Assembly (NCBI GenBank): GCA_945883545.1
Contig: CAMCXT010000010.1
Span: 1 to 64,000 of the forward strand
Direction: 5' to 3'
DNA from: Chitinophaga pinensis
GTDB taxonomy: Bacteria > Bacteroidota > Bacteroidia > M30B66
DNA: 64,000 bases
Below are positions 4,469-34,020 of the stretch, piece after piece. Below the pieces are notes generated by a model. It did not search any database. It had not been told where the DNA came from and saw nothing but the letters and a program-made list of their open reading frames with translations. The first letter of the stretch is position 1, and each line of letters begins with the position of its first letter. The position numbers were made by a program, and so were the translations under genes.

Positions 4469-4553
4469 GTTCGAAACTTGATTTGGAAAATTCATGATTT
4501 TTTTTGTGGGAAATTCCCACACCTATCCCCTTCCCAGTGGCAATTTCGGAGGA
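4469..4553 (-). repeat. Dispersed hairpin repeat, copy 1
   Basis: On the minus strand it reads TCCGAAATTGCCACTGGGAA, then GGGG, then the 17-base palindrome TGTGGGAATTTCCCACA, an A run, and TTCCAAATCAAGTTTCGAAC. This is nearly identical to copy 2 and recognisably the same element as copies 3-6. Confidence 0.85.
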
Positions 4554-4765
4554 AAGGAAATGATGGACAAGTGGAAACTCGTGTTGCAGTGAAAAGTTAT
4601 CCGATTGCTTGTTGATGGAATTTCATCCATCCAAATAGTTCAATAGAACTTTACTGCAACTCCAGTAAAATCAAGTTCATCGAAAATTAAGTAATGATTA
4701 TCAACTGAACGCCGAGCTCGATGATAGAATCATTTTCCTAAATAGTATAATTGGCGAGGGGAATT

Positions 4766-4848
4766 GTTCGAAACTTGATTTGGAAAATTCATGATTTTTT
4801 TGTGGGAAATTCCCACACCTATCCCCTTCCCAGTGGTAATTTCGGAGG
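4766..4848 (-). repeat. Dispersed hairpin repeat, copy 2
   Basis: Minus-strand order of blocks: TCCGAAATTACCACTGGGAA, GGGGATAGG, palindrome TGTGGGAATTTCCCACA, A run, TTTTCCAAATCAAGTTTCG. It is the best reference for the family and lies one 297 base period from copy 1. Confidence 0.85.
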
Positions 4849-5062
4849 AATTGAAATAATGAACAAGGATAAAATTTGGGTGCATTGAAAAGTTATCCGA
4901 ACTGTTGTTGATGAAATTTCATCCATCCAATTAGTTCAACCGAATTTAACTGCTTCTGTAGTAAAATCAGGTTCTTCAGAAATTAAGAATCGATTCTTAC
5001 TCAGGAACCTAAGCTGGTTGATAGAATCATTTTCCTAAATAGCTTAATTGTTGAGGGTAACT

Positions 5063-5147
5063 GTTAGAAACTTAATTTGGAATAGTCATGCTTTTTTTGT
5101 GGGATAAATCCCAAGCTATTCCCCTTCCCAGTGGTAATTTCGGAGGA
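5063..5147 (-). repeat. Dispersed hairpin repeat, copy 3
   Basis: It has the same block order as copy 2, but the hairpin has become TGGGATTTATCCCA, preceded by GGGGAATAGCT. In this part it is closer to copy 6 (33.8 kb) than to its tandem neighbours, so the units are not simply recent duplicates of each other. Confidence 0.8.
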
Positions 5148-5251
5148 AAGGCTACAAGGAACAAGGACAAAATTGTGATCGGCTCAAAAGTTATCCGAAC
5201 AAATGTTGAATACGATGTAATTATATTGATATCAGCGAATTACAACATTGC

Positions 5252-6130
5252 CTATCCACAAGAGTTATATTTTTCGTAAACCTCAATAGCCTCAAACGCT
5301 TCTCTACAATCATGCACTCTCAGAATGTTTGCCCCCTTCTGTAAAGCAAGCATGTGTAAAGCAGTTGTTGCATTCAATGCTTCTGATGCATCAATATTTA
5401 AAAGTCTAGTGACCATACTTTTTCTTGAAACTCCAACAAGCAAGGGAACTCGAATATGTTTGAATTCATCAAGGTGATGAAGTAAAGTATAGTTGTGTTC
5501 AAGCGATTTCCCAAAACCAAAACCGGGATCTACAATCACATCAGAAACGCCAAGTTGAAACAACTGTTGGAGTTTGGTCACTAGTTCAGATATTACTTCC
5601 TGGGTTACGTTTTTGTAGTGAGGATTTTTCTGCATTTCGGCTGGTGTGCCTTGCATGTGCATCATCACATAAGGAACCTTCAAATCGGAAACTGTTCTAA
5701 ACATGTTTTTGTCGAGTGCTCCTGCAGAAATATCGTTGATCAAATCAGCTCCCTCTAAAACGGATTTGCGAGCTACCTCAGAATGATAGGTATCCACCGA
5801 AAGGTGAGTTTTTGGAAATCGTGATCTAATAGCTTTTAATACTGGTGATAACCGCTCCCATTCTTCAGTAGGGTCTGAAATGGAGGAGCCCGGTTTAGAG
5901 GTTGATGCGCCTAAATCCAAAAAGGAAGCACCACCTGTAACATGTTTTTCTGCTAAACTAATTGCGGCATCAATCGAACTTGCGCGACTGTCCTTGTGAA
6001 AAGAATCATTATTCACATTGACAATACCCATTATCTTGGCTTTTTCGAAGGAAACGATTTTTCCTTGAACACAAATTGATGGTATATTCGACAGGGATGT
6101 TAATTTCGCACCCAATTCATTTGGCTTCAT
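5252..6130 (-). CDS. folP: Dihydropteroate synthase
   Basis: This 292-residue enzyme joins 4-aminobenzoate to the dihydropterin pyrophosphate in folate synthesis. Visible family motifs, in order: IMGIVNVNNDSF (pterin loop 1), LDLGASTSKPGS (loop 2), HLSVDTYHSEVA, LINDISAG, YVMMHMQGTP, VDPGFGFGKS, GVSRKSM and ILRVHD. Loop 1 reads NVNNDSF instead of the usual NVTPDSF, and loop 2 has S-K before the conserved P, as is partly usual in Bacteroidota. The frame is open upstream, but the first ATG is at 6130; its start codon overlaps by two bases the start of the divergent DUF1599 gene. A TTG at codon 6 is an alternative start. A perfect TATCTTTG box at 6173-6180 (minus strand) gives a leader of about 40 bases. 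Confidence 0.95.
   Translation of the reverse strand: MKPNELGAKLTSLSNIPSICVQGKIVSFEKAKIMGIVNVNNDSFHKDSRASSIDAAISLAEKHVTGGASFLDLGASTSKPGSSISDPTEEWERLSPVLKAIRSRFPKTHLSVDTYHSEVARKSVLEGADLINDISAGALDKNMFRTVSDLKVPYVMMHMQGTPAEMQKNPHYKNVTQEVISELVTKLQQLFQLGVSDVIVDPGFGFGKSLEHNYTLLHHLDEFKHIRVPLLVGVSRKSMVTRLLNIDASEALNATTALHMLALQKGANILRVHDCREAFEAIEVYEKYNSCG
6101..6108 (+). promoter_or_regulatory. Possible -7 box for the DUF1599 gene
   Basis: TAATTTCG differs by one base from the Bacteroidota consensus TAnnTTTG and lies 20 bases before the ATG at 6129, inside the folP coding region on the other strand. No clear -33 element was identified. Confidence 0.35.
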
Positions 6131-6671
6131 GCAACAAACTTCGGAACAATTTGATCGCGTAATTGCGAGATGCAAAGATATTTTTCTCAAGAAGAACAAC
6201 GACTATGGTACGTCATGGCGAATATTGAGAAGCAGTTCGATTACTGATCAGATTTACATTAAAGCAACACGTATTCGAGGAATTGAAACTTCTGGTAATC
6301 ATAAAGTTGACGAAGGAATTGAGCCTGAATTCATTGGGATTGTGAATTATTCGATTCTGGGTTTGATTCAATTGAAATTGACCGACAATGATCCAATTGA
6401 GCTCGAAGCCGAAAGAACTGAAAAACTTTATGATTCTACTGTTGCCGAAGTGAAGGACCTAATGATGATGAAGAATCACGACTATGGTGAAGCTTGGAGA
6501 AATATGCGCGTGAGTTCGTTTACAGATATGGTTTTGATGAGATTGATGCGCATTCGACAAATTGAAGACAACCAAGGACAAACACTTGTATCTGAAGGAA
6601 TTGATGCCAATTACATGGACATGATGAACTATTCGGTTTTTGCGTTGATCAAACTTACAGAGGAGAATTAG
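6129..6671 (+). CDS. DUF1599 domain protein (two tandem copies)
   Basis: The 180-residue protein consists of two related halves. Residues about 7-90 contain CKDIFLKKNNDYGTSWRILR, RIRGIE, VDEGIEPEFIGIVNYSILGL; residues about 98-178 repeat this as VKDLMMMKNHDYGEAWRNMR, RIRQIE, VSEGIDANYMDMMNYSVFAL. The DYG-x-x-W-R and N-Y-S-(I/V) motifs identify DUF1599, which has no established function. Such proteins are typically found between folP and a DoxX-like gene in Bacteroidota, exactly as here. The start codon overlaps head to head with that of folP. The gene is followed after 8 bases by the DoxX-like gene, so they are likely one operon. Confidence 0.9.
   Translation: MQQTSEQFDRVIARCKDIFLKKNNDYGTSWRILRSSSITDQIYIKATRIRGIETSGNHKVDEGIEPEFIGIVNYSILGLIQLKLTDNDPIELEAERTEKLYDSTVAEVKDLMMMKNHDYGEAWRNMRVSSFTDMVLMRLMRIRQIEDNQGQTLVSEGIDANYMDMMNYSVFALIKLTEEN
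6173..6180 (-). promoter_or_regulatory. folP -7 promoter box inside the DUF1599 gene
   Basis: The minus strand reads TATCTTTG, a perfect match to TAnnTTTG, 43 bases before the folP ATG. It lies in codons 15-18 of the opposing DUF1599 gene, so folP transcription would begin antisense to that gene. Confidence 0.55.
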
Positions 6672-6679
6672 AACTGGTT

Positions 6680-7633
6680 ATGAAATACTTGGTATTGATA
6701 AGCAGACTGCTGGTTGGAAGTTATCTAATCATAACAGGGTTTTTCGATGCCAACGATGTTATTGGTTATGCATACAAGTTGGAAGTTTTTTCCACAAGCC
6801 TAGATTTAAAATCTCTAGTTTCCACATCGGTTTTGCAAGCTGGGTTTTTCAGTTTTGTTTCTACTGCACTTGGAGCAATGTTGCTGCTAGGTGAGAAAGT
6901 GAGGATGACACTGTTATTGGTTACATTGTTTGTGCTATTGAATTTAATATCAGTCATCTTCCTTTCCAATCATATTGAAGACAACTCATGGAATAATGTT
7001 ATTTTTCAATTCCTTCTATTGCTTCTTTGCATTTACATGATGATGAAAAGAAGCAAAATAAAACCTCTGTTTTCACCGATCAAACAAAAAGTAACATTAA
7101 CAACCTTTATTCTAGTTGCTGCAGTAATTCCGATCTATTCATACAGTTTCTTGCCTATAGTTGATTTTGGGAATTATCCGGTTGGTGTAGACATTCAAGT
7201 CGTTACAGATGAAGGAAATCGAACCTTTAACTGTTTCGAAATGGATGGTAGCAGTGCAACCAAGAAAATGTTGGAATACGAAGGTCATCAGTTTTTATTG
7301 ATCATCGAAGACATTAAATCGTGCCATTCTAATGCTTTCCCAAAGTGCAATCTATTAGCAACTGAAGTAGAAAAACAGGGCATCCCGATTTATGGAATAG
7401 CTTCAAATAATCCTTCGGAGATTGAAGATTTCAGACATGAGGTGCAGGCTGCTTATCCTTTCATGCAGGCCGAACAACAAGTTTTAAGATCCATGATTCG
7501 GTCTAACCCCGGACTGATTTTACTTGATGGTTCAACAATCGTCGCGAAATGGCATTTTAATTCAGTACCTTCTTTTGTTGATGTGGCATCAGAATTCAAA
7601 CTGAAGAAAGGTGGGCCACCACTAATTCAATAA
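6680..7633 (+). CDS. DoxX-like membrane protein with thioredoxin-like C-terminus (BT_3928 family)
   Basis: Four hydrophobic segments in the first about 160 residues (beginning LISRLLVGSYLIITGF) fit the DoxX fold; a further one near residue 160 leads into a soluble C-terminal domain. That part (about 195-317) has FLLIIEDIKSCHSNAF, IPIYGIASNN and a closing NPGLILLDGSTIVAKW, the layout of a thioredoxin-like domain, but with C-H-S-N in place of CxxC. This matches the BT_3928 family that follows DUF1599 genes in Bacteroidota. Its role is not established; redox or quinone-linked work at the inner membrane is inference. It ends 3 bases before mnmE and is probably co-transcribed with it. Confidence 0.82.
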   Translation: MKYLVLISRLLVGSYLIITGFFDANDVIGYAYKLEVFSTSLDLKSLVSTSVLQAGFFSFVSTALGAMLLLGEKVRMTLLLVTLFVLLNLISVIFLSNHIEDNSWNNVIFQFLLLLLCIYMMMKRSKIKPLFSPIKQKVTLTTFILVAAVIPIYSYSFLPIVDFGNYPVGVDIQVVTDEGNRTFNCFEMDGSSATKKMLEYEGHQFLLIIEDIKSCHSNAFPKCNLLATEVEKQGIPIYGIASNNPSEIEDFRHEVQAAYPFMQAEQQVLRSMIRSNPGLILLDGSTIVAKWHFNSVPSFVDVASEFKLKKGGPPLIQ

Positions 7634-7636
7634 ACA

Positions 7637-9010
7637 ATGAATCAGAATACAACCATTGCAGCTTTGGCTACAAATCCCGGGATGGCTGCAATTGCAGTGA
7701 TTCGAATTAGCGGACCAACAGCATTTGAAGTTTTAGGTAAAGTGTTTCAACCTTACGGTGGGAAAAAGCTTGAAACGGCTGAAGGGTACACAATTCTGTT
7801 CGGAAAAATGCTGGACAATGGTCGAAAAATCGATGAAGTTTTGGTGAGCATATTTCGAGGCCCTCACTCCTATACTGGTGAAGACACATTGGAAATTTCT
7901 TGTCATGGATCGGTTTACGTCCAGCAGGAATTGCTTCAATTGCTTTATCGGAATGGATCAGAACCAGCCAAAGCCGGCGAGTTTACCTTGCGGGCATTTA
8001 TGAATGGTAAATTAGATTTAAGTCAGGCGGAGGCTGTGGCAGACTTGATTTCTGCCGGAAACCAAACTGCTCATGCGCTTGCGATGCAACAGCTTCGTGG
8101 AGGATTTGGCGATGAAATCAGAAAACTGAGAACAGAACTGCTCAATTTCCTGGCCTTGATCGAATTAGAATTGGACTTTAGTACGGAGGATGTTGAGTTT
8201 GCAGACCGTGGTTTATTGGAAATTTTGGTGAAGCATATTCGCGGAGTTGTAAATCGTTTGAAAGACAGTTATGCGATGGGCAATGTGCTCAAAAACGGCA
8301 TTCCTGTTACGATTGCTGGTAAGCCCAATGCAGGGAAATCGACCTTGCTAAATGCCCTTCTCAATGAAGAGCGCGCCATAGTGAGCGATATTGCTGGAAC
8401 CACAAGAGATACAATTGAAGATGTTTTGGTGTTGGATGGAATGGCATTCAGATTTATCGATACAGCTGGATTGAGAAAAACCGATGATATAGTAGAGAAT
8501 ATTGGAATCGAAAGGAGTTTTAAGAGTATTCGTGAAGCTTCAATAGTCTTGTATCTTTTTGATTACGAAAGCTTTGAAAAGGGAGAAGTAAACCATCAGT
8601 TTAAGCAAATTCAGGACGAAGCGAACGCCCATACTTTGGTTATTCCGGTAATGAACAAAGCTGATAAACTGGATTCGATTCCAGAAAATCTACCAAAAAA
8701 CACATTGGTATTGAGTGCGTTAAACAAAACAGGACTGAACGATCTGACCAATCACTTGGTGCAATACGCTCACTATGGAAAGCCCGATGGGAAAGAAGTT
8801 GTTGTAACCAATGCGAGACATTATCACGCTCTGAACCAGTCGTCGCTCTGTCTTGATCAAGTGCTCAGGGGATTGGAATTGAGATTGCCCGGCGATTTGC
8901 TTTCAGCCGACATTCGAGATGCTTTGGATGCTTTGTCGGAAATCACAGGGGAAGTCACCAACGAAGAGGTTCTTGGAACTATCTTCGGGAAATTTTGTAT
9001 CGGAAAATAA
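7637..9010 (+). CDS. mnmE: tRNA uridine-5-carboxymethylaminomethyl GTPase MnmE
   Basis: With MnmG it modifies U34 of certain tRNAs. The 457-residue protein is full length: N-terminal folate-binding domain (IAALATNPGMAAIAVIRISG), helical region, inserted G domain with P-loop GKPNAGKST (about residues 228-236), switch II DTAGLR, and NKAD specificity motif, and the C-terminal FCIGK with the catalytic Cys. It belongs to the DUF1599/DoxX unit by spacing. The partner gene mnmG is not in the window. Confidence 0.97.
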   Translation: MNQNTTIAALATNPGMAAIAVIRISGPTAFEVLGKVFQPYGGKKLETAEGYTILFGKMLDNGRKIDEVLVSIFRGPHSYTGEDTLEISCHGSVYVQQELLQLLYRNGSEPAKAGEFTLRAFMNGKLDLSQAEAVADLISAGNQTAHALAMQQLRGGFGDEIRKLRTELLNFLALIELELDFSTEDVEFADRGLLEILVKHIRGVVNRLKDSYAMGNVLKNGIPVTIAGKPNAGKSTLLNALLNEERAIVSDIAGTTRDTIEDVLVLDGMAFRFIDTAGLRKTDDIVENIGIERSFKSIREASIVLYLFDYESFEKGEVNHQFKQIQDEANAHTLVIPVMNKADKLDSIPENLPKNTLVLSALNKTGLNDLTNHLVQYAHYGKPDGKEVVVTNARHYHALNQSSLCLDQVLRGLELRLPGDLLSADIRDALDALSEITGEVTNEEVLGTIFGKFCIGK

Positions 9011-9047
9011 TCACAACATTTCTTCATTTAGATTCTCAAATCTTATT

Positions 9048-10073
9048 ATGCGCCACTTAATCGTTTTATTCATTTCGTTGATTAGTCTCTCGTTATTCGG
9101 TCAGAACAATGATGTAACTAAGAGAATTGAGTATTCAGTTTATTCTTTAGAATTCCCCAAGGCGAAGGAGAAGTTGGATAATTTCATTCTCGCCAATCAA
9201 TTCGAGCAACTGTCATTCAAGGAAACGCGCGATCAAATCACCTATCTATTTAAAATAAAAGAAGTCGATATCTCGAAAATTGACTCTATGGTGAAAGTTC
9301 TAGGTTATGTAAACGCACGAAAAATCAATAATTCAAGCCAAACTTTAACGGCCGAAAATCTTGATATCGATTTAGAGCGATTGGAAAATAAACGTCAGTC
9401 GTACACAGATTTGTTGGCCAAATTAGATTCAAGTGTGTCTAAAGAGCAATACATCATTTATTGGGAGAAACGCCGAGAAACAGAAGATCAAATTAGCAAC
9501 TTCAAGAAAGAAATTCTCAAATTGAAAGCGTCTTTTAAAGTTATAACAGTTGAAATTGAAATTAGAAATGATCCCACAGGGCCAACCAATAGAAAAGTTT
9601 CGTGGGTTCATATGCCAGGTTTGCAATATAGTGTTGCATTTGTTGAACAGCCTCTGAATGGAGTTTCATATGCAGAATATGAAGGTTATGCCCTAAAATA
9701 TCTATTCACAAAAGGAAAGAACTACTTCGCCTTAGGTGCTTACAAGGCTAGAAATAGCAATCCTTTAGATTCAACTTCGATCGATGAAATTTTCAATTTT
9801 ACCTATGGTGAAGATTTTTACAGCCGCAAGTTTGGCAGAGGGAATCGACATTTTTTCAATCCGTATATAGGTTACCAATTGGGATTTAGCTTGGCTTACA
9901 ACAAAACTGAATCGAATGTTTTTCCATTCCTCTCTCCTGCATTTGGAATTGAATGGTGGAAAAACAAGTACTTTTTGTTAGACACTACTGCCGACTATTA
10001 TTTACCAGCCAATGCGATAAATCGTAATCTAAGGGCATGGAGAATTTCTGCATCCTTAAACTTTGTGTTTTAA
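9048..10073 (+). CDS. Exported DUF4349-like protein with C-terminal outer-membrane-like domain
   Basis: The 341-residue protein has a signal peptide (about residues 1-19, ending SLFGQ). Residues 25-165 look like DUF4349: an N-terminal alpha/beta part with TKRIEYSVYSLEFPKAKEKL, then a coiled-coil (about 100-160) with LDIDLERLENKRQSYTDLL. The C-terminal about 150 residues are rich in aromatic residues with alternating strands (GYQLGFSLAYN, SPAFGIEWW) and end in NFVF, as in small beta-barrels. The joining of the two is uncommon as far as I know. The open frame extends back into mnmE, but the ATG here starts a clear signal peptide. It lies 37 bases after mnmE and may share its transcript. Confidence 0.75.
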   Translation: MRHLIVLFISLISLSLFGQNNDVTKRIEYSVYSLEFPKAKEKLDNFILANQFEQLSFKETRDQITYLFKIKEVDISKIDSMVKVLGYVNARKINNSSQTLTAENLDIDLERLENKRQSYTDLLAKLDSSVSKEQYIIYWEKRRETEDQISNFKKEILKLKASFKVITVEIEIRNDPTGPTNRKVSWVHMPGLQYSVAFVEQPLNGVSYAEYEGYALKYLFTKGKNYFALGAYKARNSNPLDSTSIDEIFNFTYGEDFYSRKFGRGNRHFFNPYIGYQLGFSLAYNKTESNVFPFLSPAFGIEWWKNKYFLLDTTADYYLPANAINRNLRAWRISASLNFVF

Positions 10074-10152
10074 ACTTCGTAAGCTTTTATCAAATGGACT
10101 TTCGAGTTCTGTTTTTTTTAGCTTGTTTTACAGTTCGATGAGCCAACCCAGC

Positions 10153-10782
10153 ATGAAACTAATTTCAACTTTCATACTTTCCTTGTTATTCTCTTTGTTT
10201 TCAATCACTTCCGATGGTCAATCCTTCAGAAAGGAATACAAAAGCTGGAAGAAAAACTACAAGAAAACATTCCGAATCGACAATAGTTCGCCGCTTGGTC
10301 GGGTTGGAACCTGGCGATTAAAGTTCTTCAAACCCAGATCGGTGTTCAAAATCACAGCGAATTTGGAGAAGATCGATAATGGTCCTGTTATTTCATTCCC
10401 AACTACTACCGGAAAAACAATGGATTATCAGCCGTATGCAAAAGCATTTTTCAATGTTTATTCTCAACCTTGTACTTTGATCGTTTACCGAAGTGCGAAA
10501 GCGATTACTCAAAAGACCTACGAGAACTTCCTTTTCGTTCCATTTAGAGATTATACTTCTGGTGATGAAAGTTTTGGTGGTGGCAGATACATCGACTTAA
10601 AAGTTTCTGACATAACCGATAATAAGGTTGTGATTGATTTTAATAGGGCCTACAATCCTTACTGCGCTTACAATACAGCGTATTCTTGCCCTGTTCCACC
10701 AGCCGAAAATTCACTTCCACTCGAGATTCGTGCTGGTGAGAAAACATTCAAAAGAAGAGGCCGAGCTGCTAAGGTCCAATAG
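10153..10782 (+). CDS. DUF1684 domain protein, exported
   Basis: A 209-residue protein with a signal peptide (about 1-23, ending TSDGQ). The conserved part runs from SPLGRVGTWRLKFF to the end, with SQPCTLIVYR, ENFLFVPFRDYTSGDESFGGGRYIDL and NPYCAYNTAYSCPVPPAEN, all typical of DUF1684 (the C-terminal Cys/Pro/Asn block is diagnostic). Function is not known. The frame is open upstream into the preceding gene; an ATG at 10138 is an alternative start. It converges on the YdcF-like gene, with only 2 bases between the stops. Confidence 0.85.
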   Translation: MKLISTFILSLLFSLFSITSDGQSFRKEYKSWKKNYKKTFRIDNSSPLGRVGTWRLKFFKPRSVFKITANLEKIDNGPVISFPTTTGKTMDYQPYAKAFFNVYSQPCTLIVYRSAKAITQKTYENFLFVPFRDYTSGDESFGGGRYIDLKVSDITDNKVVIDFNRAYNPYCAYNTAYSCPVPPAENSLPLEIRAGEKTFKRRGRAAKVQ

Positions 10783-10784
10783 AA

Positions 10785-11414
10785 TCAATATTTGAGGTAA
10801 TAATAGAATAGCTTCACGTATTCGTTATTTACCATCAATAGGCCGCTTTCGTTTTCCCACCAACGGTTTTCAGAGTACGATAAAGCTGGAGCACCACGGA
10901 GCACCAATTCGATTCCTGCTTCTTCAAACTGATCTCTGAAGGCATAATCAATTCGATTGGTGTGAAATCGATCACTTACCACAATGATACGTTTCAATTG
11001 TTTGATTTTGCAGTAGGCTAATATGGCATCACTTTCTTCTCTGGTGCTTGTACCTATGTGGATTGTTTCTATTAATTTTTCAGGCACACCCTCATCCAAA
11101 AGTTTCTTTTTACTCAAATCTGCTTCATCGATTTTTATGTTGAAAGCAGCAAACAAATCTGGGATATTTTCCCCTGTGCAAACGAATCGTTTCGCATAGC
11201 CTGATCGATAAATACGATGAACTTCTTTGGCTCGAGCTTCAGGATTGCCGCTCAACATGAACACTGCTTCGCAGGTCACCAATCCATCTTCATTGATTAA
11301 TCTGTTGCCCACAAATCGCATGAGCGGATGTCTGAAAATCCAAGTCGAGATTAAAATGATCAATAATACCGCACCAATTCGAGCGATTTTTTTGAGTGTA
11401 GTTTTTCCTTTCAC
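10785..11414 (-). CDS. YdcF/SanA-family (DUF218) membrane-anchored protein
   Basis: A 209-residue protein with one N-terminal membrane segment (about residues 10-27) and a DUF218 domain: VTCEAVFMLSGNPEARAKEV, YRSGYAKRFVCTGEN, STREESDAILAYCK, RIIVVSDRFHTNRIDYAFR. These are the conserved acidic/His loops of ElyC/SanA/YdcF proteins, which act in envelope maintenance by an unknown mechanism. The start is GTG; there is no ATG before residue 30, which would remove the anchor. A perfect TACGTTTG box at 11445-11452 (minus strand) supports this start with a leader of about 30 bases. Confidence 0.85.
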   Translation of the reverse strand: MKGKTTLKKIARIGAVLLIILISTWIFRHPLMRFVGNRLINEDGLVTCEAVFMLSGNPEARAKEVHRIYRSGYAKRFVCTGENIPDLFAAFNIKIDEADLSKKKLLDEGVPEKLIETIHIGTSTREESDAILAYCKIKQLKRIIVVSDRFHTNRIDYAFRDQFEEAGIELVLRGAPALSYSENRWWENESGLLMVNNEYVKLFYYYLKY

Positions 11415-11444
11415 GCAACGAACGTAATAAAAGTTTTAACAAGC

Positions 11445-11452
11445 CAAACGTA
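11445..11452 (-). promoter_or_regulatory. -7 box for the YdcF-like gene
   Basis: The minus strand reads TACGTTTG, matching TAnnTTTG, 30 bases before the GTG start at 11414. No clear -33 element was identified. Confidence 0.5.
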
Positions 11453-11616
11453 AAATCAAGGCAGCGAAGGATGTCGAACAATAGATTTGAAAGGTTCCCG
11501 TTTGGGAAAGGTCTTTTTGACTTATTAAAGATGAACGAATTATCAACTTTATTCGGTGCATTTAATGGTTTATCTGCTTGTATTTGGATGTTGATTTTGG
11601 GTTAATTTGCAATCGA

Positions 11617-12252
11617 ATGAAAACAACACTTCTCGGTTTAATTATATTGTTGTTGGTGGGTACCACATCGGTTGGATATGCACAAAACAATGAACCTAAA
11701 ATCATCCAATTTTCTGGAGTTGTTGTTAGCAGCGACAGTTTGCAACCAGTACCATACGTTGCCATCACACAGAAAGGCTCATACCGCGGAACCCTCAGCG
11801 ATTATTATGGATTCTTCTCGTTTGTTGCCCAGGAAGGCGATACTATAGAATTTTCTGCACTGGGTTTCGTCAAAGCGCAATATGTGATTCCTAACAACCT
11901 GGATGATTCTAGATATTCTATCATCCAAGTTTTAAATCAAGACACATTCTTGCTTCCAACAACGGTTGTTTACCCTTGGCCTACCAAAGAACAGATTTAT
12001 GAATATTTCTTAAAAGCACCAGTTCCAGATGATGATCTTGAACGTGCCAGAAAAAATCTAGCCCAAGAAAAAATGGCAGATTTGGCTATGCGCACGCCGA
12101 TGGATGCTAGCATGAACTACCGTTATTCAATGAATCAATACAATACCAAGCTTTACAATGCTGGTCAAATACCGATGAATAATTTGTTGAACCCAATTGC
12201 ATGGGCAAAATTTGTAGATGCTTGGAAAAAGGGAGATTTCAAAAGGAAATAA
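11617..12252 (+). CDS. Exported carboxypeptidase-regulatory-like domain protein
   Basis: A 211-residue protein with signal peptide (about 1-22, ending VGYAQ) and a carboxypeptidase-D regulatory-like domain (about 28-110): FSGVVVSSDSLQPVPYVAI, SDYYGFFSFVAQEGDTIEFS, LGFVKAQYVIP. The C-terminal half (PWPTKEQIYEYFLKAPVPDD and on) is conserved with small Bacteroidota exported proteins of unknown role. It precedes the TonB receptor at 12270 by 17 bases, so the two are probably an operon; a periplasmic or surface helper role is inference. The frame runs further back, but the ATG here starts a clear signal peptide. Confidence 0.8.
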   Translation: MKTTLLGLIILLLVGTTSVGYAQNNEPKIIQFSGVVVSSDSLQPVPYVAITQKGSYRGTLSDYYGFFSFVAQEGDTIEFSALGFVKAQYVIPNNLDDSRYSIIQVLNQDTFLLPTTVVYPWPTKEQIYEYFLKAPVPDDDLERARKNLAQEKMADLAMRTPMDASMNYRYSMNQYNTKLYNAGQIPMNNLLNPIAWAKFVDAWKKGDFKRK

Positions 12253-12269
12253 GTTCGCAGCTGTTGTAG

Positions 12270-16117: not shown

Positions 16118-16176
16118 TCAGTAAATATTAAATTCTATAGAAAAGATTACTTTTCGCCAGAATAAAATCCAAACCT

Positions 16177-17049: not shown

Positions 17050-17107
17050 AATTGCATTTAACTGATGTGTTATTGATTTTCCATAGGAAGGAATTAAAAC
17101 TCTTGGT

Positions 17108-19443: not shown

Positions 19444-20208
19444 ATGCCTGCAAAAATCAGATTACAGCGACATGGTAAGAAAGGAAAGGCTTTCTACCAT
19501 ATCGTGATTGCCGATGGTCGTGCACCTCGGGACGGGAAGTTTATTGAGAAAATAGGCACCTACAATCCGAACACGAATCCGGCAACGATCGAACTTCAGT
19601 TCGAAACTGCCCTACAGTGGCTTAAAAACGGAGCTCAACCGACAGAAACTGCTCGCGCGATCCTAAGTTACAAAGGTGTCCTCATGAAACTTCACCTAGA
19701 TAAAGGTGTAATTAAGGGCGCCCTAACGGAGGAACAAGCGGAAGCTAAACTCGTTAAATGGCTCGAAGAGAAGAATAGCAAAATCGAAAACAAGCGTACT
19801 TCGCTAACAACTTCAATGTCTGACCTTCAGAAGAAGCGTAAGGCTGATGAATTAGCTAAGAATGCTGCTCGTGCTGCTGCTATTGCTGCTAAAAATGCTC
19901 CTGAACCAGAGCCAGTTGCTGAAGTAGTTGAGGAAGAAGTTCCTGCTGCACCAGTTGAAGAAACTCCAGTTGTTGAAGCAGAAGCTCCAGCAGAAGAAGT
20001 TGCTGCACCAGTTGAAGAAACTCCAGTTGTTGAAGCGGAAGCTCCTGCAGAAGAAGTTGCTGCTCCAGCAGAAGAAACTCCAGTTGCTGAGGCAGAAGCT
20101 CCTGCAGAAGAAGTTGCTGCTCCAGTAGAAGAAACTCCAGTAGTTGAGGCTGAAGCTCCATCGGAAGAAGCTCCAGCTGCTGAAGACGAAACTAAGGCTG
20201 CAGAATAA
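19444..20208 (+). CDS. rpsP: Ribosomal protein S16 with repeat-containing acidic C-terminal extension
   Basis: Residues 1-80 are a standard bacterial S16 ([60 protein letters not shown]). S16 is usually about 80-90 residues; this one has 254. A Lys-rich linker (about 90-160) leads to an Ala/Glu/Pro/Val tail with a 19-residue unit, [19 protein letters not shown], repeated almost 4 times from residue 169. Extended S16 tails are common in Bacteroidota, but the exact repetition here is notable. The frame also runs upstream, but the ATG precedes the conserved MPAKIRL and a -7 box fits. rimM follows after 13 bases. Confidence 0.96.
19948..20175 (+). repeat. 57 bp tandem repeats inside rpsP (four units, last diverged)
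   Basis: Units start at 19948, 20005, 20062 and 20119 and encode the 19-residue unit of the S16 tail. Units 1 and 2 encode identical peptides; unit 3 has two V to A changes and unit 4 ends in PSEEAP. Such arrays can change copy number between strains. Confidence 0.85.
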
Positions 20209-20221
20209 TACTTTAGATACC

Positions 20222-20818: not shown

Positions 20819-21015
20819 GCTTGACGAGCATCCAGTAAATACCGAAATTACATCTGGGAAGGGGTTAGCATTGGGAAGTTTCCCCAACGAAAAAATCGGC
20901 AAAATCCCAAATCAAGTTCTGCACAGGCTTTTTCTGAAATCACATATTTTCAGTTTAATCCCTCTACCCTTTCAGCGAGTCGCTAAGAATCCGATGGTTC
21001 TGTTTTACTTTTGGG
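20819..21015 (+). repeat. 197 bp direct repeat, left copy (dispersed hairpin repeat, copy 4)
   Basis: It starts GCTTGACGAGCATCC and ends TTTTACTTTTGGG. By eye it differs from the right copy by one base (T versus C in the CAGTTYAATCC segment). Its part 20841-20924 (ACCGAAATTACATCTGGGAA, GGGG, hairpin TTGGGAAGTTTCCCCAA, A run, CCCAAATCAAGTTC) aligns block by block to the dispersed family near 4.5-5.1 kb. Confidence 0.9.
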
Positions 21016-21082: not shown

Positions 21083-21279
21083 GCTTGACGAGCATCCAGT
21101 AAATACCGAAATTACATCTGGGAAGGGGTTAGCATTGGGAAGTTTCCCCAACGAAAAAATCGGCAAAATCCCAAATCAAGTTCTGCACAGGCTTTTTCTG
21201 AAATCACATATTTTCAGTTCAATCCCTCTACCCTTTCAGCGAGTCGCTAAGAATCCGATGGTTCTGTTTTACTTTTGGG
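21083..21279 (+). repeat. 197 bp direct repeat, right copy (dispersed hairpin repeat, copy 5)
   Basis: The same sequence as 20819-21015, offset by 264 bases. The near identity implies a recent duplication or ongoing homogenisation, in contrast to the diverged units near 4.3-5.2 kb. The family core is 21105-21188. Confidence 0.9.
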
Positions 21280-23085: not shown

Positions 23086-23152
23086 TCTTCGGTAACCTTC
23101 AATCAGTTATTTTAAGAATATAATTAACTTCACTTCCAAATAAACGAGAGTT

Positions 23153-24198: not shown

Positions 24199-24230
24199 AA
24201 CTATTTTCTTTGAACTCGGTTATTCAATAG

Positions 24231-25133: not shown

Positions 25134-25135
25134 GC

Positions 25136-25750: not shown

Positions 25751-25754
25751 ATTT

Positions 25755-25762
25755 CAAAACTA
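25755..25762 (-). promoter_or_regulatory. -7 box for the CpeT-like gene
   Basis: The minus strand reads TAGTTTTG, matching TAnnTTTG. It ends 5 bases before the ATG at 25750, leaving room for a leader of at most about 1-2 bases. Confidence 0.5.
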
Positions 25763-25789
25763 CACAATTGAACTGCTTATTTTTAATAG

Positions 25790-26659: not shown

Positions 26660-26800
26660 ATCAGATTGATTAAACCCTTTTATCCACAATCGATCTTTGA
26701 ATATCCTTATTTTTAAGGGCATTCAGCACTTTCGATCATAGTGAATGAATTCTCCAATACGTGCGATTCCTCCTTCTCAACTAACCATATATTTAACGTA

Positions 26801-27850
26801 ATGAAGAATCTGATGAAGCATCTAAAAGATTGGTCCAAGGCATTCCTTTGGGCTTTCTTGGTTGCATGGACCATTAGAACCTTCTTCATTCAAGGCGCAT
26901 TTATTCCTACACAAAGCATGGAAAAATCGCTTTTGCCTGGTGATTTCATTTTTATCTCTAAGGTTAGTTACGGTCCCCGATTGCCTATCACGCCATTGGC
27001 GGTACCTTTCATGCACCAAAACTTGCCATTCACCGATAATACACCAGCATATCTTGATTGGCTCGAACTGCCTTATTGGAGAATCGGATCGATAGATGTA
27101 GAACGCAATGATGTGGTCGTTTTTAATTATCCGATGGAACTAGATCGACCAATCGACAAACGCACTTTGTACGTGAAGCGCTGTGTTGCCTTACCTGGTG
27201 ATGAACTAAAGATTTGGTCGAAACGTGTATTTATTAATGGAAAGCCGATGCCTGTTTCTGCTGAAATGCAGTTTACAAGACATATCAAATCTTCAGAACC
27301 CTTTCCGCAGCGCTTACTTGATTCTTTAAGAATTACCGAAGGTGGATTGGTATCGAACATCCATGACTATGAATTTCCGTTGAACGACAGTATTGCAAAT
27401 TTCCTCGGAACCCTTTCAACAGTGAGCAATGTAACGATGCGTATGGAAAGTGAAGGCGATTATCAGGCCCATATTTTTCCACACAATCGCTTTTTTGCAT
27501 TTAACAATGATTTTTGGGGTCCCGTTTTAGTGCCTCAAAAAGGATCCACCGTGCAGTTAAATGATTCCAACATCGTACTGTATGAGCGTATTATTAGAGA
27601 ATACGAAGGACACACACTAGAAATGGCTGGTGGGAAAATTTACATCGATAAAAAGGAATCAAAATCGTACACATTCGAAATGAACTATTATTTCATGATG
27701 GGTGATAACCGCGATAATTCTGCCGATTCAAGGGCTTGGGGCTTCGTTCCTGAAAACCATATCAGTGGAAAAGCATGGATGGTTTTCTTTTCTCATGATC
27801 CCAATACGAGTGAAATTCGTTGGAAAAGAATGTTCAGTTTTATTCGATGA
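26801..27850 (+). CDS. lepB: Signal peptidase I
   Basis: Cleaves signal peptides at the outer face of the inner membrane. The 349-residue protein has one N-terminal membrane segment (about 14-35), the catalytic Ser in PTQSMEKSLLPGD (Ser39), the general-base Lys in LYVKRCVALPGD (Lys126), and the C-terminal MMGDNRDNSADSRAWGFVP box. A long insertion (about 150-285) between the second and third boxes is usual for Bacteroidota. A GTG-started longer frame begins at 26741; the ATG at 26801 fits the family better. The stop overlaps the next start as ATGA. Confidence 0.96.
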   Translation: MKNLMKHLKDWSKAFLWAFLVAWTIRTFFIQGAFIPTQSMEKSLLPGDFIFISKVSYGPRLPITPLAVPFMHQNLPFTDNTPAYLDWLELPYWRIGSIDVERNDVVVFNYPMELDRPIDKRTLYVKRCVALPGDELKIWSKRVFINGKPMPVSAEMQFTRHIKSSEPFPQRLLDSLRITEGGLVSNIHDYEFPLNDSIANFLGTLSTVSNVTMRMESEGDYQAHIFPHNRFFAFNNDFWGPVLVPQKGSTVQLNDSNIVLYERIIREYEGHTLEMAGGKIYIDKKESKSYTFEMNYYFMMGDNRDNSADSRAWGFVPENHISGKAWMVFFSHDPNTSEIRWKRMFSFIR

Positions 27851-28476
27851 AAAGTCCTGCAATCTTTTCACTTGGCGCATTTCCTGACATCAAGACGATG
27901 GCATTGTTGTCGCAGCAACCAGATACACTTATTGAAGTTCACGACAATTACCTAAAACAAACCTATCGGAATCGTTACCGGATCGCAGGATCCACTGGAG
28001 CTATTGAATTGAGTATTCCAGTAAATTTTTCACAATCCAACAGAACATACAATCAAGTCACTATCGATTATCGAAATCACTGGAATCGCACCCATTGGCG
28101 CACCTTAACGGCAACTTATAACAACTCGCCTTACTTCAATTATTACTGCGATGCCTATGAGGATTTATTCAAAACGCCAGTGGCCACATTGATGGAGTTC
28201 AACCTAAAAGCGTTAGGACTGCTTTGTAAAGATTTCGGATTGAAGATGCCCTCTACAACCTATCAATGGGCTAATCCAGCAGATTTTAATGGAGAAGATT
28301 TACGCGATTGGATCCATCCAAAGTTGTTTGGTCATATTGAAACACCCGAGTATTTTCAAGTGTTTTCGGATCGTTTCGGATTTATCAATGGCTGTTCTGC
28401 CTTGGATTTGCTCTTCTGTATGGGCCCTGATGCCAAGTTTTATCTGATGGATTTTCAACTGCCGAGTAATAGGTGA
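27847..28476 (+). CDS. WbqC-like family protein
   Basis: A 209-residue cytoplasmic protein. FSLGAFPDIKTMALLSQQPD near the start, VHDNYLKQTYRNRYRIAGST, then LSIPV, ITIDYRNHWNRTHWRTLTAT-like (here VTIDYRNHWNRTHWRTL), YNNSPYFNYY and NGCSALDLLFCMGP are WbqC-family phrases. Family members are linked to surface polysaccharide synthesis but the activity is not established. The adjacency to lepB is common in Bacteroidota. The ATG at 27847 overlaps the lepB stop as ATGA; a longer frame is open upstream. Confidence 0.87.
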   Translation: MKSPAIFSLGAFPDIKTMALLSQQPDTLIEVHDNYLKQTYRNRYRIAGSTGAIELSIPVNFSQSNRTYNQVTIDYRNHWNRTHWRTLTATYNNSPYFNYYCDAYEDLFKTPVATLMEFNLKALGLLCKDFGLKMPSTTYQWANPADFNGEDLRDWIHPKLFGHIETPEYFQVFSDRFGFINGCSALDLLFCMGPDAKFYLMDFQLPSNR

Positions 28477-28720
28477 TTTCAAAACATCCGTAGCAGTTTG
28501 ATTAATCTGAATTCGTAAAATTACTTTCGATGTTAACACCTATAAATGTTGGTAAATTTGGATGATACTCTAGTAAAATCAGCATTAATGGAGTTATTGA
28601 ATTGATTTAACTCGTCCTTTCTTACACTTGTAAGAGCATCATAACCTTCAACGGGCATCTAACTTCTATTCGGATAAAATTTGAATACCTCAAAAAATCG
28701 AACAGAGAGGATAAAAAACT

Positions 28721-31700
28721 GTGGCAACAAACGATTTAACGTTTCCATTTCAAGCCTATCAGCAAAAACTCGGCATAGCCCGATTTAGCTTCAATGCACG
28801 CTATATTCAGCTCAACGAAAATGCTTGGATTCTATCCCTTTCGGGCATCATGAACTCTGCATCATTGGATTGGCTTAATCAACTCAAGCACAAGGTGAAT
28901 ACATACCCATCAGCACAAAATGCCACATGTAAGATTATCGTAGACCTCAGTGGCATCAAGTTTTTACCCCATCGGTTTTTACGCAGTTCTATGTCACTTC
29001 TAAGTTCAATTCTTTCAGATTCTGTTTTCTCGGAAAGATGGGTTGTTTACGGAAATGCGGTTCAGCAAAAATTCCTTCGCTATTTCTACAATTTTAATCC
29101 TGGATCAAATACACGTATTTTCGGGAAGCTTCCCACTGCAATTGAAAATTTGAAACAATTGTTTTCAGGTCAGAAGCCTGAACCTGAGGAAGAACCAGAA
29201 AATAAATCAGATCAAGAACCCGAAAATCATTCAGAAGAAAAAGAAAGGCAGAATTCTTCAGACCAAGAACTCAAGAAAAAAATTCAAGCGCTTAACCATT
29301 TCCTAAAACATGATGGAGATTCTTCGATAGAAAATGATTCAGTGTTGTCGAATATAGAGCCTGAAGATCTTTTGTATCCATTGTTGAATGACATTGTTCG
29401 ATTGAAATCGGATACCGAAAAAGCACTCGAACATATCCGCCAAATGAATGCGTATTTGGAAAAAAACATCCAAAAGCGAACCGAAGAGAGTAAAATCAAG
29501 GAATCGAATCTTCGTGCGATTTTAGACTCTACCGATGACGATATCTATTTGATCAATCACCAATACGAAATCATCGATTACAACTCAAATTTTGAGGACA
29601 ATTTCTACGCGCGTTTTGGAGTGCAACTTGAAAAAGGCAGGAACATTTTTGAAATGATGCCGCCCGAATATGAAGACTTAAAGCGAATTTCAAAAAAACG
29701 GATCGATAAAGCCTTACAAGGCTATCAAAGAACTTATTACGATCGATTAAACATCAGCTTTTACGAATCGATTACAGAAGTGAAGCTTTATCCGATAAGG
29801 TCTAATGCTAAAAAGGTTGTTGGTGTTACAATTTTCTCGAAAGATATCACCGAACAAAAAAGATCTGAAGAACTCATACAACAAAATCAACAGCTACTTT
29901 CTTCGATCAATAGAAACATCAAAGAAGGTCTTTACCGAAGTACGCCTGAAAAAGGAATGGTTTACGTGAATCAAGCCTTTGTAGAAATGTTCGGTTTCGC
30001 ATCCGAAGAAGAAGCCATTCAATCTCCATCAGGTAGTTTGTATGTGGATGTGAATCGAAGGAAAGAACTCGTTGAATTCATCGAAAAATCTGGATCCTTC
30101 AACAATGAGGAAGTTAAATTTCGTAAAAAAGACGGTTCAACTTTTTGGGGTTTGCTCTCATCCATGCGAACTGTAGATTCCGATGGAAACGTCATGTACG
30201 ATGGTGCTATCCGCGACATTACTAGGATCAAGGAATTCGAGGAGGAAATCATCCTTTCGAAAGAAATAGCAGAAAATGCAACAAGGGCAAAATCGGATTT
30301 TCTTGCCACAATGAGCCATGAAATTAGAACTCCTATGAATGGAGTTATAGGAATGACAAGTCTTTTGGCCGACACTTCATTGTCGTCGGAACAACGCGAT
30401 TATGTGGATACGATCAAATTAAGTGGTGAACATCTTCTAAATATCATCAACGATATCCTCGATTTCAGTAAGATCGAAGCGGGTCATTTGGAACTCGAAC
30501 AAACATCTTTCGATCTCAATACAATCATCGAAGAGGTGATGAATCTCTTCTCCAGTCGTGCTTATGAGAAGAATTTAGAGCTGCTTTACAGTGTAGAAAA
30601 CAACGAAGTATTTCAATTGATTGGCGATGTAACCCGTTTGCGCCAAGTGATTGTGAATCTGATTGGGAACGCTATCAAATTCACCGAACAAGGAGAAGTT
30701 TTGGTACATGTTAAAAACTTGGGCCAGCTCGGACAAAAAGTACATCTACAAATTTTGGTTACAGATACTGGAATTGGTATTCCTGAAGAGAAGCTAGATA
30801 AGCTGTTTAAGCCATTTTCACAGGTCGACAATTCTACAACAAGGAAATATGGAGGAACAGGCTTAGGATTGGCGATCAGTATGCGCTTGGTTGATTTGAT
30901 GGGAGGTAAGTTGCAAGCAGAAAGTAAAGAAAATGAAGGAACAACGTTCACATTTGATGTTTTCATGGAGCGAACCTTTTTGGATGAAAATCGATTTCGG
31001 AGCGCCGAATTATTAAAAGGAAAGCGCATTCTTATTGTGGATGATAACATGACCAATCGAAAAATATTGGAGCAATTATTCAGGAATAATGGGATGTTGG
31101 TGGAGTCTTACAACAATCCAATGATTGCACTTTCTATCATTCGGGAAGGAAAGAAATTTGATTTAGGATTGATCGACATGAAAATGCCTGAGATGGATGG
31201 CATTACGTTCGGAAAGGAAATGGACAAGCTGGTAAACGGTGTTCCGCTAATTCTTTATTCTTCTGTGGGGCATATGCTTTCGCGCACCGATATAAATCGA
31301 TACTTCAAAGCACATGTGAATAAACCAATCAGACACGATTTGCTTCTTCAAAAAATGGCTAGTATCTTTCAAGTAGATCAGCCTGTAAATATCGAACCTG
31401 AATTTATTGCATCAATTCCTGAAGCTTCAGTTGGTACAAAATATCCAATTCGAATCCTTCTCGCTGAAGACAATATGATCAACCAAAAATTGGCTGAAAG
31501 AATCCTTGAAATATTTGGTTATCAGATCGATATCGCCGATAATGGTAAAATAGCATTCGAAATGATGCAAGAAAATCTTTACGACATGATTCTGATGGAC
31601 GTGATGATGCCTGAAATGGATGGTTTAGAAGCAACCAGAACAATCCGATCTACCATTGATTCAATGGATCAACCAATCATCATTGCTGTTACTGCAAATG

Positions 31701-31831
31701 CCCTTAAAGGAGACCGAGAGCTATGTCTAGAAGCAGGAATGAATGATTACATCAGTAAGCCAATCAACACCTTAGAATTGAAGGCATTGCTCGTAAAATA
31801 CGGAGAGGTAATTCTTCGCAAAAAGGCTTAA
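28721..31831 (+). CDS. Hybrid sensor histidine kinase with two receiver domains
   Basis: A 1036-residue cytoplasmic protein without membrane segments. In order: a STAS-like N-terminal domain (about 20-145, with KIIVDLSGIKFLPHRFL and SMSLLSSILSD), an acidic linker (150-190), a coiled-coil (about 225-260), PAS 1 (about 262-375), PAS 2 (about 385-500), HisKA with MSHEIRTPMNGVIGM (His533), HATPase with NLIGNAIKFT and DTGIGIPEEKLDKLF, receiver 1 (Asp819, LIDMKMPEMDG), receiver 2 (Asp960, LMDVMMPEMDG). Both receivers keep the phospho-acceptor Asp and the K-P motif. There is no output domain or Hpt. The start is GTG with an AGAGAGG upstream; no ATG is near. The signal is unknown. Confidence 0.92.
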   Translation: MATNDLTFPFQAYQQKLGIARFSFNARYIQLNENAWILSLSGIMNSASLDWLNQLKHKVNTYPSAQNATCKIIVDLSGIKFLPHRFLRSSMSLLSSILSDSVFSERWVVYGNAVQQKFLRYFYNFNPGSNTRIFGKLPTAIENLKQLFSGQKPEPEEEPENKSDQEPENHSEEKERQNSSDQELKKKIQALNHFLKHDGDSSIENDSVLSNIEPEDLLYPLLNDIVRLKSDTEKALEHIRQMNAYLEKNIQKRTEESKIKESNLRAILDSTDDDIYLINHQYEIIDYNSNFEDNFYARFGVQLEKGRNIFEMMPPEYEDLKRISKKRIDKALQGYQRTYYDRLNISFYESITEVKLYPIRSNAKKVVGVTIFSKDITEQKRSEELIQQNQQLLSSINRNIKEGLYRSTPEKGMVYVNQAFVEMFGFASEEEAIQSPSGSLYVDVNRRKELVEFIEKSGSFNNEEVKFRKKDGSTFWGLLSSMRTVDSDGNVMYDGAIRDITRIKEFEEEIILSKEIAENATRAKSDFLATMSHEIRTPMNGVIGMTSLLADTSLSSEQRDYVDTIKLSGEHLLNIINDILDFSKIEAGHLELEQTSFDLNTIIEEVMNLFSSRAYEKNLELLYSVENNEVFQLIGDVTRLRQVIVNLIGNAIKFTEQGEVLVHVKNLGQLGQKVHLQILVTDTGIGIPEEKLDKLFKPFSQVDNSTTRKYGGTGLGLAISMRLVDLMGGKLQAESKENEGTTFTFDVFMERTFLDENRFRSAELLKGKRILIVDDNMTNRKILEQLFRNNGMLVESYNNPMIALSIIREGKKFDLGLIDMKMPEMDGITFGKEMDKLVNGVPLILYSSVGHMLSRTDINRYFKAHVNKPIRHDLLLQKMASIFQVDQPVNIEPEFIASIPEASVGTKYPIRILLAEDNMINQKLAERILEIFGYQIDIADNGKIAFEMMQENLYDMILMDVMMPEMDGLEATRTIRSTIDSMDQPIIIAVTANALKGDRELCLEAGMNDYISKPINTLELKALLVKYGEVILRKKA

Positions 31832-31837
31832 GCTGAT

Positions 31838-33037
31838 TTAATCGACGTAATCGCTTAAGTATTTAAATCGCGGCATTAGTTCGCCTTGATCTGCAATTGA
31901 AGCGCGTTTTATCATTCCATTGGTATCGGATATAAACAAGTTCCCGATCACATGTTTGATCAGCTGCTCACCAAAAGCGAAAGACGCATCGAAAGGCAGT
32001 TCACACGGTAAATTGCTTACAGCCATGATATCGATTGTGTTGGGAAGGTATGGTTCTTCGATGGTTTCCGACAAAGGATGATAACCAAAAACAGGATCTT
32101 CGATGGTTGTATCCTTTAATGTTGCGGGGATTGAACCGTTAACGTCGCAACTGATGTCGGCGATCACCTTGATTTTGAAATCGCGCGACTTCATATCTTC
32201 CAAACTGAAGAACCTAGGAATTCGTTCATTCCAAAAGATTGCGTTCAACATTAAATCGCAGTGTTTACTATATTGCTTAAAGGTTGAAACGTAATTTTCA
32301 GGATTGTGGTAGAAATCCGATTTGTCCCACAGTTCGCCATCTTTTTGCGCGTAAAAATCTTCGGTCACCAAATGAACATACACCGGATAATCGTAAACCT
32401 CTTCAATAAATTCTCGCGGTGTTACTTCACGAATTCCCAGTTTATCAAGCAATTCCAAGCAGCCATGCGCAACCCGTCCATCGCCTGTTAATGCGATTTT
32501 AATCGGTGGCATTTGGATGTTGCTATACTGATCGAACATCTCTTTATAGTCGCGGCACAAATAAGCTGGCTTCAGGTTAAACAGCCCCATCTTTTTTCCC
32601 CAGGTCATAAAACCATTGTGCGTTCCCACAATTCCAGCAAACCTACCAAAGCCGAGCACTCTGCTGCCATTTTCCCAAACGAGTGTTTCGTAATCTATCA
32701 GGCAAATATTGCTTTGAAGCACTTTACGCAGAAGTTTGCGGTTGTGTGGCTGCTTTTTGATTGTATGGGAGAAAAACAGGTATTTTTTATTGGGAATCAA
32801 CTCTTCTACAGGTACTTCTTTGATCCCAAAAAGAATATCACATGTGGATAAATCTTCGTTCAGAGTAAGTCCTGCTTCAAGGTACGCGCTATCTGGAATA
32901 CACCTATGCGGCGATGGTTGAACGGTAATCTGAACATTGTTGAAGCTTGAAAGGATTTCGAGGCATTGCTCTGGCGTGAATGCAACACGTTTGTCTTCAG
33001 GCTTTTTTCCTTCACGAATGATTCCTATGTGGATCAT
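31838..33037 (-). CDS. Alanine dehydrogenase/saccharopine dehydrogenase-like oxidoreductase
   Basis: A 399-residue cytoplasmic NAD(P)-dependent enzyme of the AlaDh/PNT superfamily. N-terminal substrate domain: IGIIREGKKPEDKRVAFTPE, VQPSPHRCIPDSAYLEAG, DILFGIKEVPVEEL, YLFFSHTIKKQ. Nucleotide domain: PPIKIALTGDGRVAHGCLEL, with G-D-G-R-V in place of the usual GxGxxG. The IREGKxPxDxRV and HxxKxQ layout is closer to lysine-forming saccharopine dehydrogenase (Lys1 type) than to alanine dehydrogenase, but many Bacteroidota members are of unproven function. A CATCTTTG box (33061-33068, minus strand) one base off consensus lies 24 bases before the ATG. It converges with the kinase gene. Confidence 0.82.
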   Translation of the reverse strand: MIHIGIIREGKKPEDKRVAFTPEQCLEILSSFNNVQITVQPSPHRCIPDSAYLEAGLTLNEDLSTCDILFGIKEVPVEELIPNKKYLFFSHTIKKQPHNRKLLRKVLQSNICLIDYETLVWENGSRVLGFGRFAGIVGTHNGFMTWGKKMGLFNLKPAYLCRDYKEMFDQYSNIQMPPIKIALTGDGRVAHGCLELLDKLGIREVTPREFIEEVYDYPVYVHLVTEDFYAQKDGELWDKSDFYHNPENYVSTFKQYSKHCDLMLNAIFWNERIPRFFSLEDMKSRDFKIKVIADISCDVNGSIPATLKDTTIEDPVFGYHPLSETIEEPYLPNTIDIMAVSNLPCELPFDASFAFGEQLIKHVIGNLFISDTNGMIKRASIADQGELMPRFKYLSDYVD

Positions 33038-33151
33038 AAATTCAAATGATTTTGGGACCGCAAAGATGTTGCATTCAGCTGTAATACCCTAAATGATTGA
33101 ATTAATTTTCTGGTTTGTTGTGCTATTGTGAATCAAAGTAAAATTTAAACG

Positions 33152-33159
33152 TATTTTTG
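33152..33159 (+). promoter_or_regulatory. ssrA -7 box
   Basis: TATTTTTG matches TAnnTTTG and ends 15 bases before the mature tmRNA 5' end, which leaves room for a short leader to be removed by RNase P. Confidence 0.55.
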
Positions 33160-33174
33160 CATGTTCATTCCAAT

Positions 33175-33563
33175 GGGGCCGTCATGGTTTTGACAGCGAG
33201 CGCATTGATATGTAAGCATGCCGGGTGTTGCGAGGTTAACCCGAAAATACAATCCGCGAGCCATCAACTGGCGAAAACAACTACGCACTAGCTGCCTAAT
33301 CCTAGAAGGGTTACGCCGCTTACCGGAATGGTAAGCACTAGTTGTCTATCGGGGAAGTTTTCTCAAGTCGTTCCCGACAAGGCATCGTAAAGTTTGAGAT
33401 AGATAGTTCAGGGTCCTGATGAATTATCGAAAACTATCGGGACTAAGAAGAGGGCTGGTTTGTTCCGTTCCTTCCCCCTTCCGACAATTGATTCGGAAAT
33501 AAGCATGTAGAAAGCCTATGAATTCCTTGTTTGGACGCGGGTTCGACTCCCGCCGGCTCCACA
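33175..33563 (+). ncRNA. ssrA: Transfer-messenger RNA (tmRNA)
   Basis: It rescues stalled ribosomes and tags the unfinished protein. The 5' end GGGGCCG pairs with CGGCTCC at the 3' end (one G-U pair), forming the acceptor stem, with GGTTCGACTCCC as the T-arm. The tag frame runs 33270-33299 from the GGC resume codon: GENNYALAA and TAA. This tag is typical of Bacteroidota. The CCA end is not fully encoded (the sequence reads ACA), so it must be added. The alternation of paired arms between tag and T-arm agrees with pseudoknots, which I did not fold exactly. A hairpin follows at 33579-33615. Confidence 0.95.
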
Positions 33564-33578
33564 ATTAATTCAAGTTCC

Positions 33579-33615
33579 CTGCCTGTCTGTGTTCATTCAT
33601 TATGCAGACAGGCAG
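33579..33615 (+). terminator. Hairpin downstream of ssrA
   Basis: CTGCCTGTCTG and CAGACAGGCAG form a perfect 11 bp stem with a 15-base loop. It is not followed by a clear T run (AGACTTTCCC), so it may be a terminator or a processing/protection hairpin. Confidence 0.5.
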
Positions 33616-34020
33616 AGACTTTCCCGGCTCAATAAAATCATCATCGAGTTTTTCGAACAGCCCTCAAATGGCATATTTGGTTACTTTGAACGCTGAGAAT
33701 AATCGTTTCGGTATTTTCTTATTCACCCAATGTTTACTCTTTATTCACACTGCGGTTTAAAAGTAATTTATCAATTTTCAGAATTCCCTTTTCGCCTATT
33801 CCCAAATCTCCGAACTTTCCACTTGGGTAGGGGAATAGCTTGGGTTTTATCCCACAAAAATAGAATCACAATTCCAAATTTAATTTCAAACAGAATGCTG
33901 AGTTGTAGGCAAATTGTTTTGATAAAATTGAAAATTATTATTCTTTCTGTTCAACTTGTTTGCAAAATCATCACATCGAAATGGTATTCAATAATCTTAT
34001 ATTTTTAGTCTAATAGAAAT
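33616..34020. other. Intergenic region between ssrA and the TatD-like gene
   Basis: AT-rich sequence with no credible gene. It carries copy 6 of the dispersed hairpin repeat at 33809-33891. The frame open at 33730-34008 runs through that repeat and has no family resemblance. Confidence 0.75.
33809..33891 (+). repeat. Dispersed hairpin repeat, copy 6
   Basis: It reads TCCGAACTTTCCACTTGGGT, AGGGGAATAGCT, hairpin TGGGTTTTATCCCA, A run, AATTCCAAATTTAATTTCAA. The block order equals copy 2 and copy 3 (reverse complement), and the GGGGAATAGCTTGGG stretch is identical to copy 3, 29 kb away. Confidence 0.8.

Follow-up and report, generated by a model that had tools for sequence, protein, structure and literature searches.

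The six hairpin-bearing repeats in the window (the whole stretch of 64,000 nucleotides that was analysed) belong to a real, lineage-restricted family of tandem intergenic repeats that is apparently undescribed, and we give roughly even chances to the interpretation that its members are small non-coding transcription units, tandemly amplified within this lineage. All six copies lie at the positions reported in the initial annotation, whose hairpin sequences are exact, and an independent repeat search of the window recovers every one of them; aligned over about 100 nt, they share 46 invariant columns. No credible gene is overlapped by any copy, the sole overlapping open reading frame being one of 92 aa at 33730-34008. 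The earlier count of six copies at three loci is right as to the copies but too low as a description, since these form tandem arrays and are part of a larger family. Array A (4.4-5.1 kb) consists of three minus-strand copies in tandem with a period of 296-298 bp, and array B (20.8-21.1 kb) is a pair with a period of 264 bp, in which the spacer differs between units despite 99% identity across 200 nt (Table 1). At the locus of the single copy, the counterpart in a congener (G002) holds two copies. With +1 set at the first G of GGGNAGGGG, unit 1 of array A comprises a TTG (-35), the GAAATTGC box, GGGAAGGGG, GGG/CCC arms, an A-run and CCAAATCAAGTTTCGAACA. A coding minisatellite with a 57-nt period also occurs in the window, at 19878-20219, in the tail of an S16-containing open reading frame.

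Table 1. Repeat units in the window and the genes flanking array A; "first G" is that of GGGNAGGGG.
Feature	Position	Strand	First G	Remarks
Array A, unit 1	4460..4572	-	4535	
Array A, unit 2	4756..4868	-	4831	
Array A, unit 3	5054..5166	-	5129	
FGE-sulfatase-like gene	3315-4259	+		neighbour of array A, convergent
Pterin-binding gene	5252-6199	-		neighbour of array A, convergent
Array B, unit 1	20819..20931	+	20856	subfamily D; downstream of rimM
Array B, unit 2	21083..21195	+	21120	
Single copy	33788..33900	+	33825	GGGTAGGGG variant; between tmRNA and TatD-family gene

Copy numbers rest on searches with a profile built from 19 copies (BLAST was also used). The window's own genome (G000, a 3.15 Mb draft) yields at least 37 copies that match clearly, with E no higher than 1.3e-6, a result far beyond chance and in agreement with the earlier suggestion of many copies genome-wide; weaker relatives were confirmed by eye, for example a three-unit array at C8:9074-9600. 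A profile survey of 60 genomes yielded 52 matches in G002, 4-12 in each of the other congeners, 8 in the genus of G006 and 1-2 in the genus of G007 and G009, while convincing copies were absent from 50 genomes of other families in the class, the weak matches inspected there being due to chance or to different repeats. Likewise, when 84,980 genomes were scanned with a pattern, the only family members recovered came from freshwater "Bacteroidetes bacterium" MAGs, and the leftover matches look like chance. Arrays hold 2-5 or more units at periods of 135-360 bp, and many contigs end inside or close to an array: true copy numbers are therefore higher than counted, and repeat arrays would explain many contig breaks in these assemblies. 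The description of a dispersed intergenic family is borne out by 119 of 122 units; each of the three others overlaps a frame (127-480 aa) that lies on a short contig or where a contig starts. As the initial annotation had supposed, the family carries no name: Rfam, including Flavo-1, is negative both at gathering thresholds and at E up to 5, matching only tmRNA apart from chance microRNA matches far below their gathering scores. A phage, plasmid or viral origin was rejected because those collections hold no match to the family, the viral pattern matches being unrelated sequence. The repeats appear to be an undescribed, genome-wide non-coding family of an uncultured freshwater Bacteroidota lineage.

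Comparison among genomes indicates how the arrays have changed. Most loci in G000 have a syntenic counterpart in G002, and, in a tree of the units, orthologous arrays cluster together and the nearest relatives of copies are other copies in their own array, showing concerted evolution within arrays. At least one locus, that on contig C20 (L085), is missing from the orthologous intergenic site in both G002 and G004; the difference there extends over all 1.3 kb of the intergenic stretch and takes in a gene, and no target duplication is seen. The orthology of loci, the similarity within arrays and the absence of this one locus together argue for slow turnover and array homogenisation, not current dispersal: units would multiply locally through tandem duplication and be homogenised inside arrays, with the loci themselves inherited, in all probability, mostly vertically. 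Between orthologous loci, conservation falls into blocks at -80..-40 and -10..+30, with 96% identity at 0-10 as against some 60% outside, and a third, weaker block lies at +40..+65.

These patterns bear on an explanation that we regard as unlikely yet worth keeping in view, in which the units are non-autonomous repeats of the REP/MITE type, selfish or domesticated, that spread at a low rate and amplify in tandem, their promoter-like bases being there by chance. Numerous copies, strictly intergenic position and the lack of an orientation preference would all suit such repeats, as would the presence/absence turnover at L085 and the two Y1_Tnp transposases in the window's genome. However, no terminal inverted repeats were found (inverted score 22.9 versus 21.9 in the null) and the majority of loci have an orthologue in a second species, two findings that count against the MITE option raised initially, and constraint is confined mainly to two short blocks. 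Nor does either Y1_Tnp locus carry the family, the repeat that flanks the RAYT-like gene on C7 being another one, AGGCCTAAAGGCCC, and membership of a REP/RAYT system was rejected on this ground. Although the family resembles REP/BIME elements with RAYT (TnpA-REP) in being short, palindrome-containing, intergenic and present in many copies, it differs from them in that units recur every 135-360 bp, copies lack inverted pairing and no transposase lies nearby, and in that a REP-like family distinct from it accompanies the genome's own RAYT-like gene. That gene (L023, G000:C7:19298-22507) is apparently frameshifted or rearranged and sits among many AGGCCTAAAGGCCC repeats.

The reading of the units as small transcription units draws on signals at set positions upstream of GGGNAGGGG. 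Among 44 loci from G000 and G002, a TTG occurs at -36/-34 in 24 and [TG]AnnTT at -13/-12 in 38, and the two occur jointly in 24, compared with at most 3 in shifted registers. The box is kept in 17 of 19 loci from G003 and G004, in only 2 of which the TTG is present, and the TTG is found in none of 10 loci from the remaining genomes. The local promoter grammar is given by the rrn operon of G000, with four upstream promoters of the form TTG-N19-TAnnTTTG, and TAnnTTTG occurs upstream of G000 genes 64 times where 14.4 are expected; exact TAnnTTTG is absent from the -7 box position of the units, i.e., their box is non-canonical. (The stretch upstream of the 16S rRNA gene, locus L230 on contig C1, positions 1012-1350, is itself a tandem rRNA promoter array: four near-repeats of about 105 bp, each with TTG-N19-TAnnTTTGC.) Start sites have been mapped in Flavobacterium psychrophilum, where the -7 box occupies -12 to -5 relative to them and its TAnnTTGY variant marks a distinct promoter class (PMC9723704). 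Similar to these SM5 promoters, 15 of 75 loci have TAnnTTGY at -12 or -13; there, however, the box precedes protein genes, whereas here it precedes G-rich repeats and is looser in most copies. Because the G-run is positioned relative to the box as F. psychrophilum starts are, we infer that transcription would begin at the first G of GGGNAGGGG. A candidate promoter TAnnnTTTG at about -70 was dropped in favour of the -33/-7 register, as this motif is not enriched upstream of G000 genes. At the other end, the intrinsic terminator signature was not found downstream of units. In 9 of 44 loci, against 0.66 expected per bin, the complementary strand of a motif around +45..+65, CCAAATTTAGTT, reads TAAATTTG (TAnnTTTG), a possible convergent promoter; strict boxes are too few for the motif to be read as a DnaA box.

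Under the transcription-unit interpretation, a promoter of the -33/-7 type (TTG-N20-[TG]AnnTT) would set the start on the first G of GGGNAGGGG or directly beside it, the RNA would begin with the almost invariant GGGNAGGGG and its first bases would pair with a downstream UN'(U)CCC to form a 5' stem-loop. Transcription, start site and a non-coding RNA function are here predicted from motif and position. A small RNA was among the options initially listed, and it is the one we favour, on the basis of the promoter-like signals and not of the hairpin. The hairpin had been taken to have its pairing kept by selection on structure, but its GGG/CCC arms are invariant, and a tree-aware covariation test of 108 distinct units returned no significant base pairs. 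Pairing outward from the GGG/CCC hairpin is hardly above that of shuffles, fold energies of the units are ordinary, and several subfamilies carry GGGTTCCC or GGGTTCC, whose 2-nt loop is unable to hold a hairpin. With invariant arms, no covariation and such loops, conservation of the hairpin is not evidence of structural selection. The alternative stem, in which GGGNA, at what would be the 5' end of the RNA, pairs with UN'(U)CCC, may fit better, which is suggestive only: N takes all four bases across the family, and 54 of 70 units are paired at N/N' versus 43.7 +/- 2.5 in shuffles, in a post hoc test with only three phylogenetically independent contrasts. The possible co-variation between N and one position of the CCC arm, equally only suggestive, is seen in the TA that precedes CCC in 7 of 13 distinct units with N=T versus 2 of 53 with N=A.

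The nearest functional analogue is FopS of Bacteroides, like the present family a multi-copy, largely intergenic sRNA family in Bacteroidota in which each copy has its own promoter; in B. thetaiotaomicron it numbers 14 members, and FopS carries a Rho-independent terminator and has the RRM protein RbpB as its partner (PMC11697453). The units share the feature of several paralogous copies with promoters of their own, the promoters being recognised here by position and motif only. In contrast, our arrays are tandem, a word absent from the text of the FopS paper (PMC11697453), and neither a terminator nor an RRM partner was found (RRM_1 has zero matches in the window's own genome, which is 93% complete, with a positive Bacteroides control), so we do not file the family there. 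A CsrB-type sponge RNA was rejected, since CsrA was not found in the genome. The Flavo-1 RNA motif, widespread in Flavobacteriaceae and of unclear function, is likewise placed in either sense (PMC9723704), but no Rfam model matches the units, even with E allowed to reach 5. If transcribed, the units would add a family of sRNAs in tandem arrays to a phylum from which few have been characterised.

Just upstream of -33, CG dinucleotides in 10-bp phase, as AAACGTTTATAAACGTTT or GAAACGGTTATAATCGATTATATCCGG (also written CGnTTATAAnCGnTTATA), are found in one large subfamily and in the G006, G007, G009 and G001 copies. A search for this pattern gave matches genome-wide and none in the control, and about a dozen further places have the CG block without the GGGNAGGGG core, some of them before other G-rich hairpins. 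The block looks like a putative regulator site common to several small units, and in the large subfamily and the other genera of the family it would act as an activator or operator site for the transcription units; if these are transcribed, the sRNA family would be linked to a phased operator also found at other G-rich hairpins. Loci at which a TAnnTTTG-like box and the phased CG block precede other G-rich hairpins are L209, L215 (G000:C65:4668, C3:55946), L211, L212 and L214, and the hairpins behind the block include GGAGGGAGGCTAGCGGCCGGCCCCTG (two identical copies), GGGGTCAGCGGGAACTGGCCCCGGGC and relatives. At L208 (G000:C22:1868), the block lies upstream of an open reading frame whose product starts MNNLRNSVRLIGNLGGNPEIKEITGG and, by eye, presumably resembles a single-strand-binding protein.

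The block occurring without the core also suits a quite improbable alternative, in which GGGNAGGGG and the phased CG sites are binding sites within protein-binding DNA arrays that serve the nucleoid, segregation or a dedicated regulator. Similarly, GGGNAGGG is the E. coli KOPS consensus, with an N that takes all four bases. But GC skew does not predict how the units are oriented (agreement at 10 of 24 and at 13 of 24 loci), the window itself contains a reversal of orientation within 16 kb, and this alternative leaves the fixed spacing of the upstream promoter unexplained. With orientation independent of skew, GGGNAGGG is not a polar KOPS signal, and a polarity of the FtsK type along replichores was rejected, local GC skew serving as proxy: apart from the consensus, the units differ from FtsK orienting sites in their lack of polarity, their tandem arrays and their hairpin and promoter context.

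G-rich stretches in ColE1 RNA II and in mitochondrial CSBII have been proposed to favour a persistent RNA:DNA hybrid. By a reading that we consider very improbable, a regulated promoter fires into GGGNAGGGG, whose G-rich non-template strand would favour such a hybrid, and function would reside in the hybrid and not in an RNA that diffuses away, the hybrid marking sites of recombination, replication priming or chromosome organisation; this would account for the tandem amplification.

Transcription units that stand alone should be indifferent to the sense of their neighbours, and the orientation of units is indeed random with respect to genes, as for stand-alone units: flanking genes are convergent in 16 cases, divergent in 15, in tandem with the unit in the same sense in 14 and in tandem in the opposite sense in 12. 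That the units are instead cis-acting leader or attenuator RNAs of adjacent genes, as their intergenic position and promoter-like signals might suggest, is highly improbable and largely refuted by this orientation test, same and opposite sense being equally frequent, distances to genes ranging from about 60 to more than 1000 bp and the functions of neighbouring genes being unrelated.
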